This document shows, in pieces, positions 38,690-47,556 of a stretch of 64,000 bases of DNA. Below the pieces are notes generated by a model. It did not search any database, had not been told where the DNA came from, and saw only the letters and a program-made list of their open reading frames with translations. Made by a program: the position numbers and the translations under genes. This DNA is from Pseudodesulfovibrio nedwellii (GTDB taxonomy: Bacteria > Desulfobacterota > Desulfovibrionia > Desulfovibrionales > Desulfovibrionaceae): NCBI RefSeq assembly GCF_027923765.1, contig NZ_AP026709.1, forward strand, positions 2,351,501 through 2,415,500. Direction: 5' to 3'. Positions within the stretch are counted from its first letter, which is position 1. The number at the start of each line of letters is the position of its first letter.

Positions 38690-41600
38690 TTATTCTTTCC
38701 CGACATATAGTGCGTAGTAACCGCTTGGTACGACAACCAGCGTAAACAGCGTTGATGCCACCAAACCAAATATCAACGCCCATGCCAATCCCGAGAAAAT
38801 CGGGTCCAAGGTAATGGGCCACGCACCAAGCGCAGTGGTCAATGCCGTGAGCACGATGGGTCGCATACGCACCGCGCCGGACAGAATAATGGCATCTTTG
38901 AGCGGCTTGCCGTTCTTGACCTCGGTCTGAATGAAATCGATGAGTACCAATGAATTTCGGATAACAATACCACCGAGCGCAATCATTCCGATCATTGACG
39001 TTGCAGTGAAGAAGACCGGATCTCCGAATTCGCCGATCTCCCCACCCGCTATTATGTTAAGCAACCAGAATCCCGGCAAAATACCGAGCAGGGTTAACGG
39101 GATGGCCGACATGATAAGCAACGGCATGATGAATGACCCCGTCTCGGCAACAAGCAGAATGAAAATACCGAGCAATGCAGCTGCATTAGCCAACCCAAGA
39201 TCACGGAACACATCAAGAGTAATCTTCCACTCGCCTTCACCCGCCCATTCAGCACGGGTACCTAGCGGCATGGGGTTTTCCTTCAGTTGCGACTGAAGAT
39301 CAAGCACGGCCTCCCCCGGCGGGATACCTGCCGTGTCACCAAAGACATACGCTAATCGCTTCAAATTCTTATGATAAATAGGCTGCTCCGAAGAAACCTC
39401 GCGAAACCTCCCCAACTCAGCTAACGGGACCATGGCCCCGGACGCACTTTTCATGCGTAATTCGCCGAGCGTGTCAGGACCGGTCCTCAACCCGACCGGC
39501 AAAACCATGCGCACAGGCAACGGCTGCCGTTCGCGCTCCATGTGAACAGAGGCCGGGGTTGCACCGGACAGGGCCAGGCGGAGCGTATCCACCACATCAG
39601 CAGCTGTTACGCCATGCAAAGCGGCCTTTTCCTTGTCGAGAACAAAATCAACCATCATCCGATCAGTCTCGGCAGAATTATCCAAATCGACCAAACCGGG
39701 CTGGGCCGCCATAAGCGACTCCACATGCTTTGCCCCGTCGATGAGTACGGAATAATCCAGTCCTGGCCGACCATATATTTCAGCGGTCAAAGTGGAGATA
39801 ACCGGCGGACCGGGTGGCGTTTCGATAAGCTTGAGCCGCGCACCATGGCGGACAGCGATTTCATGCAAATCGTTTCGCAGTCGCAAACCAATACCGTGCG
39901 ACTGCATATCCCGCTCGGACTTGTCCGCCAAATTCACTCGAATGTCGGCTAGGTTCGAATGCTCGCGCCAGTAATAATGACGCACCATACCGTTAAAATC
40001 CATGGGGGACGGCGACCCGGTGTACGTGACGAAATTGGTCACCTCCGGTACGGATCGAAGATACGCCTCAAAATCACGTACAGTCCGATCAGACCGCTCC
40101 AGTGTCGTGCCTTCGGGCATGTCCACAAGCAGTTGAAATTCGTTTTTATTGTCAAACGGCAGCATTTTGAGTGGCACCAACCGCATAAGCACCAAACCGG
40201 CACACAAACCAAGCCCTACGAGAATGCCGCCCAGCAACAAACGGCGATTCCGGGACGATTCAAGAAACGGAATAATAACCTTGGAATACACCACGAGAAG
40301 TCGGGCGTTCACCCCCTGCTCCGAGGTTTTCCCTTCCTTGGCTTTTGCCGGGGCACGATTCCTGAGCAATAGATACGCCATCCACGGAACCACTGTCAGA
40401 GCGGCGACAGTAGAAAAGGTTACGGTCAGCGGCACATTGGCGGCCATGGGAGCCATGTATGGTCCCATCATGCCGGTGATGAAGAAAAGCGGGGTAAAAG
40501 ACACGATAATTGCCAAGGTGGACATGATGACGGGCGGCAAAACCTCTTTGACCGCATTCAACGTGGCTTCAAGCGGCGACCGAATACCCATACGAATATG
40601 CCGCTGAATATTATCTACATTGGTAATGGGATCATCCACGACAAGCCCTAATGACAAAATCAAAGCAAACAGTGTCACCCTATTGATGGTGTAGCCAAAC
40701 AAGTAATTAACAAAAAGGGCCAAGGAAAAACTCATGGGCACGGCCAGAGCCACAACAAGAGCTTCTCGCCACCCCAGCGCGAAAGCAAGCAGGGCCACAA
40801 CCGTAATGATGGCGAACAAGAGCGAAGACAACAACTCGTTGACCTTGGACTGAGCGGTTTCGCCGTAATTACGGGTGACTGTAACGGTTACACCCTCGGG
40901 CAAGATCGTCCGCTCAAGCTCCCGCACCTTTTTGATAACTGCATCCGCCACGCCTACCGCGTTGACGCCTTTTTTCTTGGCCAACCCGATGGTTACAGCT
41001 GAACGCGAAGTGCTTTCGGCTTGCTGGTCGATCTTAGCCAGATACACGTCGGAAAAACCAATCCGCGAATAACTGGTCGGTTCCTGTGGCCCGTCGATAA
41101 CATCCGCTACGTCTCGAAGGTAGACCGGCTTGTTGTTGAACACGCCCACCACAAGGGAGGCCGCATCTTCCGCATGGAGAAGAAAGGACTGACTGACCAA
41201 CTGCGTCTCAACATCACGCCTAACAAACCGCCCCGCAGAAAGTGAACGGTCTGCCCCCTTGAGTGCTGTGTAGACTTCCAACGGCGATACATTAAACCCG
41301 GCCAAACGGTCAGGGTGTACCTCCACCCGCACCTCACGACTCCGCCCGGAATGCAGGGAAACGCGGGACACATCCTCGACCTCGGCCAGTCGATGAAAAA
41401 GTTCTTCGGCCATGCGCCTCAAATCAAAATCCGAATACCGCTCTTCAAATCCAAAATCTGCATGCAGCGTCAAAGCCACAATAGGAACGTCATCGATTTC
41501 AACGGGTTTTACAACCCATCCGGCCACGATATCAGGCGCTAAATCACGGTTCTTGAGGATAGTATTATGCAACTTGATGAGCGAATCCTCACGATCCTCA

Positions 41601-41926
41601 CCGACAAAGAAACGAACCGTGACCGCTGTCATGTCCTTGGTGGAAGTTGAATAAACATACTCCACCCCATCGATCTGCCAGAGCAGCCGTTCAAGCGGAG
41701 TGGTCACAAGCTTTTCCACTTCCTCGGCACTGGCTCCCGGCACCTGCACCATGACATCTGCCATGGGAACCACAATCTGTGGTTCCTCTTCACGCGGGGT
41801 AATGAGAATGGCAGCCACTCCAAGCAGAATCGCCGCCAAAGCAACAATGATGGACATCTGTGATGTCAAAAAATATCGGACAATAGACGGCAACAAGCCT
41901 TTTACCGGAGGAGTCTCCATGCTCAT
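38690..41926 (-). CDS. RND efflux transporter permease (HAE/AcrB-like)
   Basis: A 1078-residue RND pump with the expected two-fold layout: TM1 near the N-terminus, a large periplasmic loop, and TM2-TM6 with the proton-relay motif SLGLVVDDPITNVDN in TM4, then the repeat in the second half. It exports drugs or other compounds using proton-motive force. The ATG at 41926 overlaps the stop of the fusion-protein gene (TGATG) and has GGAGG in the preceding gene; the GTG at 41929 is rejected. An outer-membrane TolC partner is not encoded nearby. Confidence 0.95.
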   Translation of the reverse strand: MSMETPPVKGLLPSIVRYFLTSQMSIIVALAAILLGVAAILITPREEEPQIVVPMADVMVQVPGASAEEVEKLVTTPLERLLWQIDGVEYVYSTSTKDMTAVTVRFFVGEDREDSLIKLHNTILKNRDLAPDIVAGWVVKPVEIDDVPIVALTLHADFGFEERYSDFDLRRMAEELFHRLAEVEDVSRVSLHSGRSREVRVEVHPDRLAGFNVSPLEVYTALKGADRSLSAGRFVRRDVETQLVSQSFLLHAEDAASLVVGVFNNKPVYLRDVADVIDGPQEPTSYSRIGFSDVYLAKIDQQAESTSRSAVTIGLAKKKGVNAVGVADAVIKKVRELERTILPEGVTVTVTRNYGETAQSKVNELLSSLLFAIITVVALLAFALGWREALVVALAVPMSFSLALFVNYLFGYTINRVTLFALILSLGLVVDDPITNVDNIQRHIRMGIRSPLEATLNAVKEVLPPVIMSTLAIIVSFTPLFFITGMMGPYMAPMAANVPLTVTFSTVAALTVVPWMAYLLLRNRAPAKAKEGKTSEQGVNARLLVVYSKVIIPFLESSRNRRLLLGGILVGLGLCAGLVLMRLVPLKMLPFDNKNEFQLLVDMPEGTTLERSDRTVRDFEAYLRSVPEVTNFVTYTGSPSPMDFNGMVRHYYWREHSNLADIRVNLADKSERDMQSHGIGLRLRNDLHEIAVRHGARLKLIETPPGPPVISTLTAEIYGRPGLDYSVLIDGAKHVESLMAAQPGLVDLDNSAETDRMMVDFVLDKEKAALHGVTAADVVDTLRLALSGATPASVHMERERQPLPVRMVLPVGLRTGPDTLGELRMKSASGAMVPLAELGRFREVSSEQPIYHKNLKRLAYVFGDTAGIPPGEAVLDLQSQLKENPMPLGTRAEWAGEGEWKITLDVFRDLGLANAAALLGIFILLVAETGSFIMPLLIMSAIPLTLLGILPGFWLLNIIAGGEIGEFGDPVFFTATSMIGMIALGGIVIRNSLVLIDFIQTEVKNGKPLKDAIILSGAVRMRPIVLTALTTALGAWPITLDPIFSGLAWALIFGLVASTLFTLVVVPSGYYALYVGKE

Positions 41927-43056
41927 CACTGGCCTCCGCCAACCGCAAGACCGACGGTTTCTCCGCCGGACAGGCCAGACAATATTTCTACCCGCTGATC
42001 GTGAACTTCACCGGTACGAACATACACCGATTGCCAGCCGGCTTCAGTCTTGACCATGACTGTTTCAAGCTGCCCGACGCGCACAACTGCGGATTCTGGT
42101 ACAAGTATGATCTCTTCTTCACCCAACGGCACCATCAACCGACCAAACATACCGGGGTACAAACCAGGGACAACAGGCAATCGAACCTGAACCAAAAAGG
42201 AACGGGTCACAGGGTCGGCCAACGGCTCAATCTCATCCACCGTTCCGACAAGCGGTTCGGTTCCGTCCAAAGCCGAAACGATCACGGATAAAGAATCACC
42301 AAGCCGCACCTGACTAATGAGAGATTCACGCACCATGGCTTCCAATTGCAGAGACCCACCGGTCTGCAAACTCAATAATTCCTTGCCCGGAAAAGCCAAA
42401 TCACCGGGTTCAGCCAACCGTTTGGCGACCTCGCCCGATTCCTGCGCTTTGATAGTGGTATATCCAAGACCGATCTCAGCCTCCTGCACCACTTTACCCG
42501 CCTCACGAGCACGTGCCTGCGCAGCAGCCACGCCCTGTTCAGCCTGTCCCAACCCTGCCTTGGCCTGAAGATAGGCAGACTCGGCTTTCTCCACTTCCTC
42601 GGCTGTGACCACCTTCTGATCGTGCAATGTACTCATACGCTTATAGGTGGACTCAGCTTTGGCAAACGCAGCCTTGGCAGCAGCCAAAACATCACGGGAC
42701 TGACTGACCATACTGGAGGCTGAAGACTCGGCCTGTCGCGAACGTTCCAGACGGGCCTGGGAAGCTCGACTATCCAATACGACCAGATCATCCCCGGCCT
42801 TGACGGTATCACCGGGGCGCACCAACACCTTAAGGACACGGCCTGTCACCTGAGCCTCGACGCGAGTGTCAGTCTTGGCCTTAACCGTCCCCACGGCCTC
42901 ATGCAGCCGAGGCAATGAAATGCGCTCGACCACGACAAAAGAGGCGGGATCATTGGCTTGACCATGCTTTACGGAAGGGGCCTCATCAGCACCGCAAGCC
43001 GACAAGCACAAGACAAGTAAAATAAATAATGAAAGACGGGATATCGTATTCTTCAT
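41926..43056 (-). CDS. RND efflux periplasmic adaptor (HlyD/AcrA-like lipoprotein)
   Basis: A 376-residue membrane-fusion protein. The signal peptide ends in lipobox LSAC (Cys about residue 21). It has a biotinyl-lipoyl half (GTVKAKTDTRVEAQVTGRVL), a long alpha-hairpin (about 100-190), a second lipoyl half and beta-barrel domains. It bridges the inner-membrane pump and an outer-membrane channel. The start at 43056 puts the signal peptide first; an in-frame ATG at 43068 adds four residues and cannot be excluded. Translationally coupled to the pump gene. Confidence 0.9.
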   Translation of the reverse strand: MKNTISRLSLFILLVLCLSACGADEAPSVKHGQANDPASFVVVERISLPRLHEAVGTVKAKTDTRVEAQVTGRVLKVLVRPGDTVKAGDDLVVLDSRASQARLERSRQAESSASSMVSQSRDVLAAAKAAFAKAESTYKRMSTLHDQKVVTAEEVEKAESAYLQAKAGLGQAEQGVAAAQARAREAGKVVQEAEIGLGYTTIKAQESGEVAKRLAEPGDLAFPGKELLSLQTGGSLQLEAMVRESLISQVRLGDSLSVIVSALDGTEPLVGTVDEIEPLADPVTRSFLVQVRLPVVPGLYPGMFGRLMVPLGEEEIILVPESAVVRVGQLETVMVKTEAGWQSVYVRTGEVHDQRVEILSGLSGGETVGLAVGGGQ

Positions 43057-43151
43057 GTGAACACGCATATCATAAGAGGGAACCTAAAGACTACAATTAA
43101 TAATGATTCCTATGGATTTCTACAGCATAGACTATGATTAAACAAAAGACG

Positions 43152-43388: not shown

Positions 43389-44042
43389 TTATTTAACCTG
43401 TTTGATGATGGCACCGCGTTCACGGTCAGGGACAAGCTCAAAAATACGCTGAGCTGAACCGGCAAATAAATCAAGCGGATGGTGCGAAATTACAAGGAGT
43501 TGTAACTCAAGGCGATCAGCAATTTCCCCGATAAGTTTCATGAATTTCGGAATAAGCGCGGGCTTGAGCCAACAATCCTGTTCATCAAGAACAAGGAAAG
43601 GCCGGTGCTGTTCTTCAGGCAACTGCGACAAAGCGATAAGCCGCAATCCCACAGAGAGGATATTACACACCGAGCCACCCTGACCGGTCATGATATCCTC
43701 TATCTCATCTTCCTTACCCTGATTGCGAATCTGGAATTGAATCTGGAGACGATTGTTTTTGACCTCGCGCAAAGTGGTCACGACACGATCCTGCCCCAGA
43801 ATCTCACGAATGGCGTGGGTCAAATTGGCTTCAACCTCGTCAAGAATCTTGCCAAACAAGGCCGTGGACAACTCTTCAAGCGTATCCCGAGCCTTTGGGG
43901 CGAGCGTCAAAAAATCCCGCACTCCACCAAGAGATTCACGCACGCGACCATGTTCGCCGTGCAAGGTTTCGGCCAAAGCCGATAGCCTGTCCAGACGACG
44001 CTCAGCCTCACGCAATTCGCCCCTAGCTTGCTCAAAAGGCAC
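43389..44042 (-). CDS. C-terminal half of a split Rad50/SbcC ATPase
   Basis: A 217-residue protein equal to the C-lobe of a Rad50/SbcC-type ABC ATPase. About residues 1-60 are coiled coil, followed by the ABC signature region TGQGGSVCNILSVGLR (about 116-131), Walker B FLVLDEQD (about 147, with catalytic Glu) and H-loop VISHHP (about 184). It has no Walker A, so it cannot work alone. Its GTG start shares one base with the TAG stop of the coiled-coil gene. It should pair with the Walker A half encoded at 45307-46650. Confidence 0.8.
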   Translation of the reverse strand: MPFEQARGELREAERRLDRLSALAETLHGEHGRVRESLGGVRDFLTLAPKARDTLEELSTALFGKILDEVEANLTHAIREILGQDRVVTTLREVKNNRLQIQFQIRNQGKEDEIEDIMTGQGGSVCNILSVGLRLIALSQLPEEQHRPFLVLDEQDCWLKPALIPKFMKLIGEIADRLELQLLVISHHPLDLFAGSAQRIFELVPDRERGAIIKQVK

Positions 44043-44365
44043 TACTTGCCGCCTTCCACTGCGTTTTCAACGTCCGCAAGATCGGCTTGTATTTGTTGTA
44101 TATGCAAACGATATTTTGTGACAACATCTTCATTTTGCAGTCTTTTTTCTTCCAATAACGATTGGAGTTCCTTGATGTCGCTGGTGCCGTATTCTGCCAT
44201 GGCCTGCTGTTTCAAAGTCTCCAACTGGCTCGTTAAGTTGGCCACATCCTGCTCGGTGCGCACCTTGCGGTCACGCAGTTGTTCATAGTGACGTCGCAGT
44301 TCGTTAAGCTCCTGTTCTACAGCGGAATCCCTGCTTGTCCCAGTTTGGTTGGGGTTGTTAATCAC
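44042..44365 (-). CDS. Free coiled-coil subunit of the split Rad50 operon
   Basis: A 107-residue protein, almost entirely coiled coil (for example LNELRRHYEQLRDRKVRTEQ and KYRLHIQQIQADLADVENAV). It overlaps the nuclease gene by 8 nt upstream and the C-lobe gene by one base downstream, with AGGAGG before its GTG. The best reading is part of the descending Rad50 arm made as a separate chain. No domain hit is expected beyond coiled coil. Confidence 0.7.
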   Translation of the reverse strand: MINNPNQTGTSRDSAVEQELNELRRHYEQLRDRKVRTEQDVANLTSQLETLKQQAMAEYGTSDIKELQSLLEEKRLQNEDVVTKYRLHIQQIQADLADVENAVEGGK

Positions 44366-45317
44366 TGTGTATGACCTCCTCGTAAAGTTCCCAGATGAGC
44401 TTGCCCTCCGGGGTCTGTGTACTCAGGTTTTCTTCAAGAAATTGTTTCAGGCCAGTGCCTTCATGCGTCCGTTGCCACGCAAGCCGCTCCAATCCATTGA
44501 TAAAATTGGATTCACCCTCGTCCTCATGTTCTTCGGTAGGCAGTTCCTGATCCGGGAACACCTTGTCGAACGTCTCGAATGGCACCACCCATTTCTCCAG
44601 ATCATCGCAACCGGGCGTCCAGATGGCAGCGGCAGGCTCCCGTTCCATGGAACGGCGGGTGAAAGTCAACCGCGTAATATTGCCGGGGTTGGCCCATGTG
44701 GTCTGCCCCTTGGTGATGGTCGTCTGTGGGCGGTGAATATGCCCGTTCACCAACCAGTCAATGCCGGGAAGTTCCTTGATCGTATAGGCTCGGTCAATAA
44801 ACTCCGGGAATTGAATATTATGATGCGTGAGCCAGATGACCGTATCAGGGTCATCTGGTTGACGATCATATTTCTTAGGAAGCGGGGTGCCGTCCGGGCT
44901 AGCACAGACCAAAACCTGTTCATCGTCGGTCTCAAGAATGAATTGCGGACTGCTTTCTTTCATCAGCCGGACCACTCCGGCGGCCTCCAAAACCGCAAGA
45001 GTGACATCTTCAGTAAAACGGGACTGATATTTGTCATGGTTCCCGACCAATGCCCAGACCGCTGAATCACCGGTTCTTGCCCCAAAAATCCGTATCAACT
45101 CCACAAGCATCTTGTTGGAGTTGTCACGAGGCCAGTGGAAGAGGTCTCCCAAAAGGACCGGAACCATGCCGAGAGCCTCAGCCTGGTCGAGACAGGCCTC
45201 AACCTTGTTCATGATCTGATCGAGATAACCATCAAGCCTCTGACCCGGCGGATGGTCCGCCAAATGGGGATCTGCGATGAAGAACAGACCATTGCCGTGG
45301 ATATGGTCAACCGTCAT
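44358..45317 (-). CDS. Mre11/SbcD-like metallophosphoesterase nuclease
   Basis: A 319-residue calcineurin-like phosphoesterase with the complete Mre11/SbcD motif set: ADPHLAD (Asp16, His18), GDLFHW, GNHDK, LTHHN and NGHIHRP. Family members form two-metal DNA exo/endonucleases with Rad50. The region after about residue 215 would contact the ATPase. ATG 45317 is chosen for motif position; it overlaps the ATPase N-half gene by 11 nt. Intact, so catalysis is expected. Confidence 0.85.
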   Translation of the reverse strand: MTVDHIHGNGLFFIADPHLADHPPGQRLDGYLDQIMNKVEACLDQAEALGMVPVLLGDLFHWPRDNSNKMLVELIRIFGARTGDSAVWALVGNHDKYQSRFTEDVTLAVLEAAGVVRLMKESSPQFILETDDEQVLVCASPDGTPLPKKYDRQPDDPDTVIWLTHHNIQFPEFIDRAYTIKELPGIDWLVNGHIHRPQTTITKGQTTWANPGNITRLTFTRRSMEREPAAAIWTPGCDDLEKWVVPFETFDKVFPDQELPTEEHEDEGESNFINGLERLAWQRTHEGTGLKQFLEENLSTQTPEGKLIWELYEEVIHSD

Positions 45318-46650
45318 GACGACACCCTTGATCAATGAATGTTGCAGTTGTCATATCACCACCACAGGTTGGACAGCAGCCAAGCTGTTTTATACGTTCT
45401 TCCACGGTCTCTTCAAGCTTCTTCAAGCTGTTCTCCAACTTGGATAGCCCCACATTGGCCGATTCGAGTCTTGCTGACAGATCATCCATGGCGGACAAGG
45501 TACCATCCAATCCTTCTGTTGACTCGACAGAAGGCGGCTCCACAACCTTCCGCAAGATGTTTTCCCAGCGCGATAAACGAGAACGTCGATATTGAACAGA
45601 TATAAATTCATCAATAAAAGCAGTCATATCATCTGTCGATTCAGGAGAGGGAAAGATTTCAAGATTTGCAAAAACCGTTGTCTGAACTTCAGCCTTCCGC
45701 AAACTTCGGTCCGCCGAATCCAGTTTTTGCATCAGCACAGCGAGTGCGCCCGTATTTTCAAGAGGATCAGGCTGTTGCAGTCCGTTCAAAGCCTCAGTGT
45801 TGCCTGACGCGTATGAAAGTCGACTTTTAACAGTCTTCATTGATGAGATCAATGCGTCCAACACTCTGACATCATGAGCTTTCGGAGGATCAAGAACACC
45901 ATCCAAGGTCGTCTTGCATTCTGTTTTTTTCAGGAGTGTATCAGACAGTTTTTCCTGTCTCTCAAGTATTGATTCCAGTGCCGGAATAATTTTGTCGAAG
46001 TCGATTGCGGTTTTTTCCAATTCACGAGCTGCCAAAACTTGCAAATCAATATCAGGCAAGGGGGCCAAACGATCTATAACACCTTCAATTCTTTCGGTTT
46101 GCCCCTCCAAATCACGAACCTGCCGCTTGGCGTCTGTTGTCTGACGCTTCAACAAGTTCTGCATGGCCAAAAGATGGGCGCTTTCCGTGGATGCGGCAAA
46201 AAAAGCGGCGGCGTTACTTGCAGGTTTATTCAACAAAAACACCGGTTCTCGCTGATTACCCACATGAATATCAACCGGATCGCCGGATTCAAGCTCCACC
46301 AGGTCCAATCTCAAGGCAGCCCGGATATCTTCCGGTGGAATTCTCCCGAATTTCCAATACTCTTCAGGCTCTTCGGCGCCGGGCTTCCAGAGCTCATACC
46401 CGGAGGACCGTTTCTTACGTACCCAGACAACTCTGGTTCCATCGTCAAGCTCAACACTGACCCGGGCTTCTTTGGCACCATGCCGAATGTTGTGGCTCGG
46501 CACGGGATTAGTTGCCAGACAGCGCAACGCCTCCACCACAGCGGATTTTCCGGTATTATTTCGGCCGGTCAGGATGGTCAGACCACTCCCGAGTTCCAAC
46601 TCGGTATGCTCATGAGCCATAAAGTTATCGATTATGATTTTTTTAATCAT
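45307..46650 (-). CDS. N-terminal half of a split Rad50/SbcC ATPase with CxxC hook
   Basis: A 447-residue protein: the N-lobe of a Rad50/SbcC ATPase (IDNFMAHEHTELELGSGLTI, Walker A GRNNTGKS at about 29-36), then a Q-loop region, then a long coiled coil (about 160-420), ending at a zinc-hook-like CCPTCGGD (about 427) only some 15 residues before the stop. There is no signature motif, Walker B or H-loop. The break therefore falls just after the hook, and the remaining half comes from downstream genes. It begins 3 nt after the stop of the upstream Cys-rich gene. Confidence 0.85.
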   Translation of the reverse strand: MIKKIIIDNFMAHEHTELELGSGLTILTGRNNTGKSAVVEALRCLATNPVPSHNIRHGAKEARVSVELDDGTRVVWVRKKRSSGYELWKPGAEEPEEYWKFGRIPPEDIRAALRLDLVELESGDPVDIHVGNQREPVFLLNKPASNAAAFFAASTESAHLLAMQNLLKRQTTDAKRQVRDLEGQTERIEGVIDRLAPLPDIDLQVLAARELEKTAIDFDKIIPALESILERQEKLSDTLLKKTECKTTLDGVLDPPKAHDVRVLDALISSMKTVKSRLSYASGNTEALNGLQQPDPLENTGALAVLMQKLDSADRSLRKAEVQTTVFANLEIFPSPESTDDMTAFIDEFISVQYRRSRLSRWENILRKVVEPPSVESTEGLDGTLSAMDDLSARLESANVGLSKLENSLKKLEETVEERIKQLGCCPTCGGDMTTATFIDQGCRHDG

Positions 46651-46653
46651 TAT

Positions 46654-47556
46654 TTATGGATATCTCGGCTTATCGTTACCAATCCTAAAATATTCTTCAA
46701 CACCATATTTTCGCATCCGCTCATTATTCATACGCCATATTTGCGCTAGCCTATCAGGCATTCCGTGCTCTTCACACGGGAATTTTTTACACTCAAAACA
46801 ATATGTAACGTTATGCTCTCGTGCACACGCAGGGACAGCGCACGCCTTGAATAAACAGCCTGATTCACGGCAACCTGAACAATGCCCGGAAGCAAAATAG
46901 TCCAGCAATTCAGTAAATGGCTGACATTGCCGAAAAACAGCATCGGTCGATTCAAAACGTTTGGCGTATTCTCCAAAGTTGACACCAAGATGCTCTTTCA
47001 ATGCGGCACTCACCTCTTGAACAGGACCACCTGCATACGCTACGCATTTGCCGCACATCAATCCGCATGAGGCCAACCGTGATGCCATGAAATCTTCCGA
47101 TCCGACAAGATAGCCATGTTCCCGCAGGATGAAAAGAGAGGTCTTGATCGCAAAGACAACCATTTCAACACATTTTGAATGCAGGTCCAGACGCTTGTAT
47201 CGCTTCTGTCCTTCCTGAGTGGAAAAATCACATTCAATCAAGTCAAAACAGTTGATACTGTTATATTTATCAACGAAGATTTCTCTAAATTCCTGAACCA
47301 TGACATACACGGGGTCCAAGTCCGCCCCCGATTCCTGGCGACCTGCATACAAACCGAATCCCATTACAGCGCCGGTCACAGCACCACACGGCCCGCAAGT
47401 ACGCCCCATGCCGCTACAAAAACCCGTAGCCATTGCTACGGCCTCTTTCGAATCCCTGCCACCAGCTTCGGCAATAAGCTTCAACACAGTCTCGGCACAC
47501 AGGAATTGATCGCCCGAGAACAATTTTTCCACGCGTTTCTCAAGAATATCAGCCAT
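46654..47556 (-). CDS. C_GCAxxG_C_C protein fused to a DUF3795-type Cys-rich domain
   Basis: A 300-residue Cys-rich protein. Residues about 1-150 match the C_GCAxxG_C_C family (LCAETVLKLIAEAGG, GFCSGMGRTCGPCGAVTGAV), putative redox proteins. Residues about 160-290 match DUF3795 (CGLMCGKCVAYAG, GHCSGCRESGCLF, CAREHNVTYCFECKKFPC), a probable zinc or Fe-S domain. The start overlaps the methyltransferase gene by 8 nt. Function unknown. Confidence 0.8.
   Translation of the reverse strand: MADILEKRVEKLFSGDQFLCAETVLKLIAEAGGRDSKEAVAMATGFCSGMGRTCGPCGAVTGAVMGFGLYAGRQESGADLDPVYVMVQEFREIFVDKYNSINCFDLIECDFSTQEGQKRYKRLDLHSKCVEMVVFAIKTSLFILREHGYLVGSEDFMASRLASCGLMCGKCVAYAGGPVQEVSAALKEHLGVNFGEYAKRFESTDAVFRQCQPFTELLDYFASGHCSGCRESGCLFKACAVPACAREHNVTYCFECKKFPCEEHGMPDRLAQIWRMNNERMRKYGVEEYFRIGNDKPRYP

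Follow-up and report, generated by a model that had tools for sequence, protein, structure and literature searches.

The element considered here is a group of four genes in a 64,000-nucleotide window of the Pseudodesulfovibrio nedwellii genome (contig NZ_AP026709.1, positions 2,351,501 to 2,415,500; coordinates below count from the first nucleotide of this window), which appears to encode an Mre11-Rad50 (SbcCD) complex whose ATPase is divided between two polypeptides. Rad50/SbcC is normally a single chain. All four frames are intact and follow one another in tandem on the minus strand (46650-43389). They encode an N-half with a Rad50-type N-lobe, a helical-repeat arm and a C-terminal zinc-hook motif (45307..46650, 447 amino acids [aa]); an Mre11/SbcD-like nuclease (44358..45317, 319 aa from an ATG, with a possible alternative TTG start at 45335); a small fourth protein, judged from its alignment to be a helical hairpin (44042..44365, 107 aa); and a C-half with a Rad50-type C-lobe and a long N-terminal helix (43389..44042, 217 aa). 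Successive genes overlap by 11, 8 and 1 nt, the same values as in an initial annotation made from the DNA sequence alone. That annotation also credited the genes with good ribosome-binding sites, which is fair for the small protein (clear, GAGGAGG) and for the nuclease and C-half (plausible), but the N-half has no clear site.

Motif labels (Walker A, Walker B, H-loop, phosphoesterase) are used in their usual sense; the positions were read from the sequence. In the N-half, Walker A is GRNNTGKS (residues 29-36, 46543..46566), with G29, N31, N32, G34, K35 and S36 invariant across the N-half alignments, and it lies within the N-lobe of an SMC/Rad50 fold, as in Rad50/SbcC. The hook motif is CPTC (residues 426-429, 45364..45375). 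Both C426 and C429 are invariant in 57/57 aligned sequences, a CxxC occurs within the C-terminal 60 aa of 66/67 N-half frames, and the profile of the hook segment matches the 140-aa Rad50 chain 6zff_A (8.3e-7), which we take to be a hook-domain structure. At the level of the motif, this would be the CxxC zinc hook of Rad50/SbcC. The Walker A and the C-terminal hook (CPTCGG) of the initial annotation are therefore borne out, with conserved residues; the long coiled coil that it placed between them is not. The arm (residues 157-423, 45382..46182) is modeled as proline-punctuated helices (157-195, 198-250, 262-288, 301-327, 340-368 and 379-423) with loops between them, and the alignment resolves it into PP-containing repeats of ~37 aa whose copy number differs among species. 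A PDB search with the single N-half sequence returned Smc6 as its sole match.

The nuclease has the full set of five phosphoesterase motifs (D16xH18, G57-D58, GNHD92-95, H165 and GHIH192-195), as first annotated. The metal-ligand positions are invariant in 24 nuclease sequences, N93 and H193 nearly so, and the protein matches Pfam Metallophos (2.1e-7). Profiles performed better than single sequences in PDB searches: the best matches of the nuclease profile are SbcD/Mre11, while the single sequence reached only 0.056 (Mre11). Judged by its motifs, then, the protein is Mre11/SbcD-like. It does not exceed the TIGR00619 (SbcD) cut-off, and a search of its own genome with that model at E ≤ 0.01 gave one match, below the cut-off and elsewhere. 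Bacterial members also share a conserved segment after the core, SxFIxGLxxLxxRRT...FLExNL.

The C-half carries Walker B as FLVLDE (residues 149-154, 43581..43598), followed by an invariant QDCW, and the H-loop as SH within SHH (residues 186-187, 43482..43487), both in the C-lobe of a Rad50 fold, as in Rad50/SbcC. K35 of the N-half and D153, E154 and H187 of the C-half are invariant in the alignments. The eight best PDB matches of the C-half profile are all Rad50; the best single-sequence match was to an ABC transporter (0.0073). Walker B and the H-loop had been annotated correctly in this gene, but its signature, found from the alignments and profile, is a variant, GQGGS (residues 120-124, 43671..43685), rather than LSGGE. 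Taken together, these observations support the view that the two halves are complementary lobes of one Rad50/SMC-type head. In the Pyrococcus Rad50 structure (PDB 1f2t/1f2u), too, a single ABC head is built from separate N-lobe and C-lobe chains, which we take to have been made as two polypeptides by design; there the pieces are fragments of a single-chain protein, whereas here the lobes are encoded apart naturally.

The small fourth protein had been described as a free coiled coil. By eye it looks more like a helical hairpin because of a conserved central turn, YGTSD (residues 59-63, 44177..44191), in an alignment that omitted L043 and L084, the latter being the window's own copy.

The arrangement is widely conserved. 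Of 2025 candidates in a protein search with the C-half, 1046 matched at E ≤ 1e-3 (120 of them listed). The bacterial proteins bear database names such as 'AAA family ATPase', 'hypothetical protein', 'exonuclease SbcC' and 'predicted ATPase'. Among GTDB contigs, 145 stretches fitted the search pattern; 124 of these encode a relative, and 80 loci were kept for counts. The GTDB relatives include members of Pseudodesulfovibrio, Solidesulfovibrio, other Desulfovibrionaceae, Syntrophobacteraceae, Desulfacinum, Desulfobacca and Desulfobacterales, and also of Pirellulaceae and other Planctomycetes, one member of Sumerlaeia and one Clostridiales metagenome-assembled genome. All four modules occur in the same order on one strand in 67/80 loci, with the nuclease directly after the N-half in each, and no frame holds two modules in any of the 80. 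Among the 67, L043 has broken frames and four have more than 150 nt between the small gene and the C-half (in L017, L031, L101 and L120, ~1-2 kb of extra DNA separates these two genes). Five further loci have nuclease, small protein and C-half (four at a contig edge), and eight have the C-half alone (three at a contig edge). This conservation of the four genes rules out chance and decay, and it agrees with the initial description of a stable split, intact in many assemblies.

Co-occurrence, a check proposed with the initial annotation, gave a consistent picture. The C-half is present in 42 of 150 sampled genomes of the order (11/36 genera), in 11 of 247 sampled genomes of the phylum, in 7 of 149 of Planctomycetota (the phylum of a Pirellulaceae genome) and in every listed sampled genome of its own genus (14, including the window's own). 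Among the 150 genomes of the order, the small protein occurs in exactly the 42 with a C-half, and the N-half (E ≤ 1e-20) occurs in 40 of these and in none of the other 108; the two genomes that lack a match (G102 and G124) are drafts. Linkage is not required for joint retention. G116, assembled as one contig, carries its N-half and small protein at 2135735-2138338 (plus strand) and its C-half at 2143879-2144490 (minus strand); G089 has a similar layout. A follow-up of 10 of the 13 loci without an N-half (L024, L045 and L082, at contig edges, were left out) found the N-half elsewhere in seven genomes (in G159 as a short match only) and none in three. L052, L069 and L016 have C-half genes and no N-half match in the draft genome, which reflects either missing contigs or C-halves with another partner. 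G086 has, ~36 kb from its intact C-half, an additional and incomplete C-half-like stretch interrupted by two in-frame TGA codons (G086:C3:305730-305975). Given the near-perfect co-occurrence, the retention of separate genes even when unlinked and the lack of a fused frame in the 80 bacterial loci, the split is stable, and the most economical interpretation is that the halves assemble in trans.

Single-chain complexes were also looked for. No intact SbcC or SbcD over the cut-off (TIGR00618, TIGR00619) was found elsewhere in the window's own genome (one contig, 3.76 Mb, 99.99% complete), a check that the initial annotation had called for; as controls, the two models gave matches in 14/14 genomes (1 over the cut-off) and 13/14 (8 over the cut-off). 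Only weak matches were obtained in this genome; judged by eye from the translations, L001 is an ABC transporter ATPase of the amino-acid type and L002 a phosphohydrolase-like protein of 826 aa. Across the order, TIGR00619 at E ≤ 1e-6 matches 97 of 150 genomes, 18 of them over the family cut-off. Such SbcD-like nucleases occur in 2 of 42 split-positive versus 95 of 108 split-negative genomes (Fisher p ~1e-22, with the caveat that all 42 positives belong to one family and the genomes are therefore not independent). The two are G115, with a full SbcD, and G125, with a 94-aa frame containing a stop. G115 (L134), of the same genus, carries an intact single-chain SbcCD pair (444 and 901 aa) alongside the split system, with what by eye is a transposase-like open reading frame nearby. 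Eight split-negative loci were read: five (L126, L127, L130, L131 and L132) have a 957- to 1418-aa single-chain ATPase beside the nuclease, and for the remaining three the choice of open reading frames yielded no clear partner. The split system thus seems to stand in for single-chain complexes, and the split could account for the near-absence of SbcD-like nucleases from the sampled split-positive genomes.

Relatives are also found in phages. Microcystis phage Mvi-JY20 has four genes in the same order (332, 319, 94 and 205 aa) that match the bacterial profiles at 5e-16 (N-half), 2.5e-9 (nuclease), 0.0023 (small protein) and 9e-7 (C-half); as the small-protein match is weak, its assignment depends chiefly on where the gene lies. 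Adjoining these split genes are RecA and a DnaG-like Toprim gene. The closest match to the C-half model among predicted viral proteins was a 215-aa stand-alone phage protein (8.5e-13). Neither the bacterial C-half nor individual Mvi-JY20 proteins retrieved anything from IMG/VR; the N-half alignment retrieved 26 contigs of up to 436 kb. From these, five apparent copies (L145, L148, L151, L161 and L166) and two weak loci (L168 and L169) were dropped. Of the 21 viral records, seven fragments below 30 kb were excluded from the counts that follow (one of the seven, G315, has a C-half). The 13 records above 30 kb chosen by N-half (12 from IMG/VR, plus Mvi-JY20) have a nuclease in 13/13 and a separate C-half frame in 12/13, the exception being G309 (61 kb). 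An N-half and a nuclease are also present in Microbacterium phage Magritte, which had been picked up through its C-half, giving a nuclease in 14/14 viral records searched. Four of these matches are built in, because the query alignments contained the sequences themselves: the C-halves of G325, Mvi-JY20 and Magritte, and the Mvi-JY20 nuclease.

The viral genes may lie together or far apart. N-half, nuclease and C-half are near 131, 210 and 278 kb in G313 and near 45, 107 and 369 kb in G311, while L165 holds in one stretch a RecD2-like helicase, RecA, N-half, nuclease, a PD-(D/E)XK nuclease and C-half, together with what we take to be a RuvC-like start and, as a weak candidate for the small protein, a 105-aa frame. 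In L154 (7448-8515), a viral contig, the nuclease is in two frames. The dropped L168 and L169 have 656- and 640-aa frames that are weakly N-half-like; L168 matches arm parts of both the N-half and C-half profiles and is possibly a single-chain relative. In a tree of joined segments, 33 split rows stand apart from 5 single-chain rows (Shimodaira-Hasegawa-like approximate likelihood ratio test, 96), and the bacterial rows group together (99). The tree is compatible with a single origin of the split but does not demonstrate it, as single-chain rows are few, branches are long, the root was chosen and Mvi-JY20 falls outside the other viral rows. L047 and L050, from Desulfobacteraceae, lie inside a mostly planctomycete branch, which suggests transfer between phyla.

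We consider it likely that the four products assemble in trans as a split Mre11-Rad50 complex, which would take over the processing of DNA ends from single-chain SbcCD or related complexes. This reading draws on gene order, conservation, motifs, lobe folds, co-occurrence, the near-exclusion with SbcD-like nucleases, and the presence of both lobes and the nuclease in phages. Each ATPase head would consist of one N-half and one C-half, and two heads would engage around ATP to gate a nuclease dimer. A short coiled base would arise where the long N-terminal helix of the C-half pairs with the beginning of the arm, and there the conserved C-terminal segment of the nuclease may dock. The arm would bear a zinc-binding hook at its end, linking two arms, and the putative hairpin protein may brace the arm at the position taken by the descending coil in single-chain Rad50. 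The contacts between chains, the ATPase and nuclease activities, zinc binding and the role at DNA ends are inferred, and the heterotrimeric arm proposed in the initial annotation is hypothetical.

Several observations weigh against this reading. Unlike in Rad50/SbcC, no long antiparallel coiled coil connects the two lobes within a single chain. The signature lacks the serine of LSGGE, with Q121 opposite it in the hidden Markov model alignment, and the D-loop aspartate is also substituted in bacterial members. According to PMC8824468, the signature serine (S793 in Pyrococcus) faces the Walker A of the partner. In structure comparison, the lobes resemble SMC and RecF heads no less than Rad50, and the small protein is weakly supported in phages. 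In the listed results, no part of the split locus exceeds the NCBIfam SbcC/SbcD/Rad50 cut-offs. The system shares with SbcCD/Mre11-Rad50 an N-lobe Walker A, a C-lobe Walker B and H-loop, the CxxC hook motif and an adjacent SbcD/Mre11-type nuclease gene, but it differs in its two-chain ATPase, fourth protein, repeat-helix arm and GQGGS signature. Since it lacks both the single chain and the signature serine, we class it as a variant of SbcCD, not SbcCD in the strict sense, with a probably similar mode of action. Pairs of the kind we presume to be YhaO-YhaN, in other genomes of the order, likewise combine a nuclease with a Rad50-like ATPase, but there the ATPase is one chain of 1171-1418 aa beside an SbcD-like nuclease (split-negative L127, L130, L131 and L132), and no CxxC was seen in the single chains of L127, L131 and L132.

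It is improbable that the lobes instead form an SMC-like or RecF/RecN-like clamp with the phosphoesterase as a mere operon partner. The structural likeness to SMC and RecF heads, the noncanonical signature and the arm would all suit a clamp, but the Rad50 matches of the C-lobe profile and of the CxxC hook speak for Rad50, and the Mre11/SbcD-like nuclease keeps its place directly after the N-half in bacteria and is present in every viral record searched. Slightly less probable again is an anti-phage ATPase-nuclease of the Lamassu/Gabija type, a defense role that the initial annotation had entertained beside repair. The N-half matches LmuB (1.8e-14) and many other defense ATPases in PADLOC, and the system is sparse in its phylum. 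However, no nuclease or effector partner of those systems was recognized: the nuclease has no PADLOC match at E ≤ 1, and C-half matches are weak (best, 0.0025). The presence in every listed sampled genome of its own genus and the near-exclusion with SbcD-like nucleases also argue against defense, as do the two phage neighborhoods read with Pfam, where RecA is accompanied by further genes of replication or recombination. A broken sbcC gene or assembly artifact, which the usual single chain and the broken frames of a few members (L043 and L154) might bring to mind, has virtually no chance of being correct, given frames intact in many assemblies, a nuclease and a small gene sitting between the halves, an order kept with no fusion, and unlinked halves that are both retained.

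PHROGs already holds both halves, as separate families: phrog_16465 ('exonuclease', 491 positions) matches the N-half at 5.4e-22 and phrog_15167 ('ATPase', 211 positions) matches the C-half at 7.2e-6, the phage halves match too, and the entries shown do not link the families as one head. We found no description of a naturally split Rad50/SbcC in the literature searched, which left most subscription papers and all preprints outside its scope. The accessible text of PMC7824862 calls SbcC/SbcD practically universal end-processing proteins of jumbo phages and reports split DNA polymerase III and RNA polymerase subunits in these phages, with no split SbcC in that text.

Rad50/SMC proteins are taught as single chains in which a folded-back arm unites the two lobes. 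A conserved natural split, kept even when the genes are unlinked (by ~147 kb in one phage record), would mean that covalent continuity of the arm is dispensable. With separable parts, the role of the long arm and hook becomes directly testable, and the small hairpin-like protein would be a so far unrecognized partner. A more speculative possibility, which we hold to be less likely than not, is a multichain Mre11-Rad50 class common to phages and bacteria, with two-polypeptide heads, a dedicated hairpin subunit replacing the descending coil, an arm length set by a variable tandem helix repeat, and a head and arm that could be opened, exchanged or reloaded on DNA by subunit exchange, an option closed to single-chain Rad50. 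We rate this lower because the hairpin protein is weakly supported in phages.

The initial annotation had made the four genes the last part of a longer operon. The upstream gene (46654-47556; C_GCAxxG and DUF3795 domains) stops 3 nt before the N-half, a spacing that makes it likely to belong to the operon. A 750-aa transcript open reading frame in a eukaryote collection (P0132) fuses this gene with the N-half; it is probably bacterial contamination and hints at cotranscription of the two. Directly downstream on the same strand (38690-43068) are an RND-type efflux transporter, recognized by eye, and its HlyD-type membrane-fusion protein.

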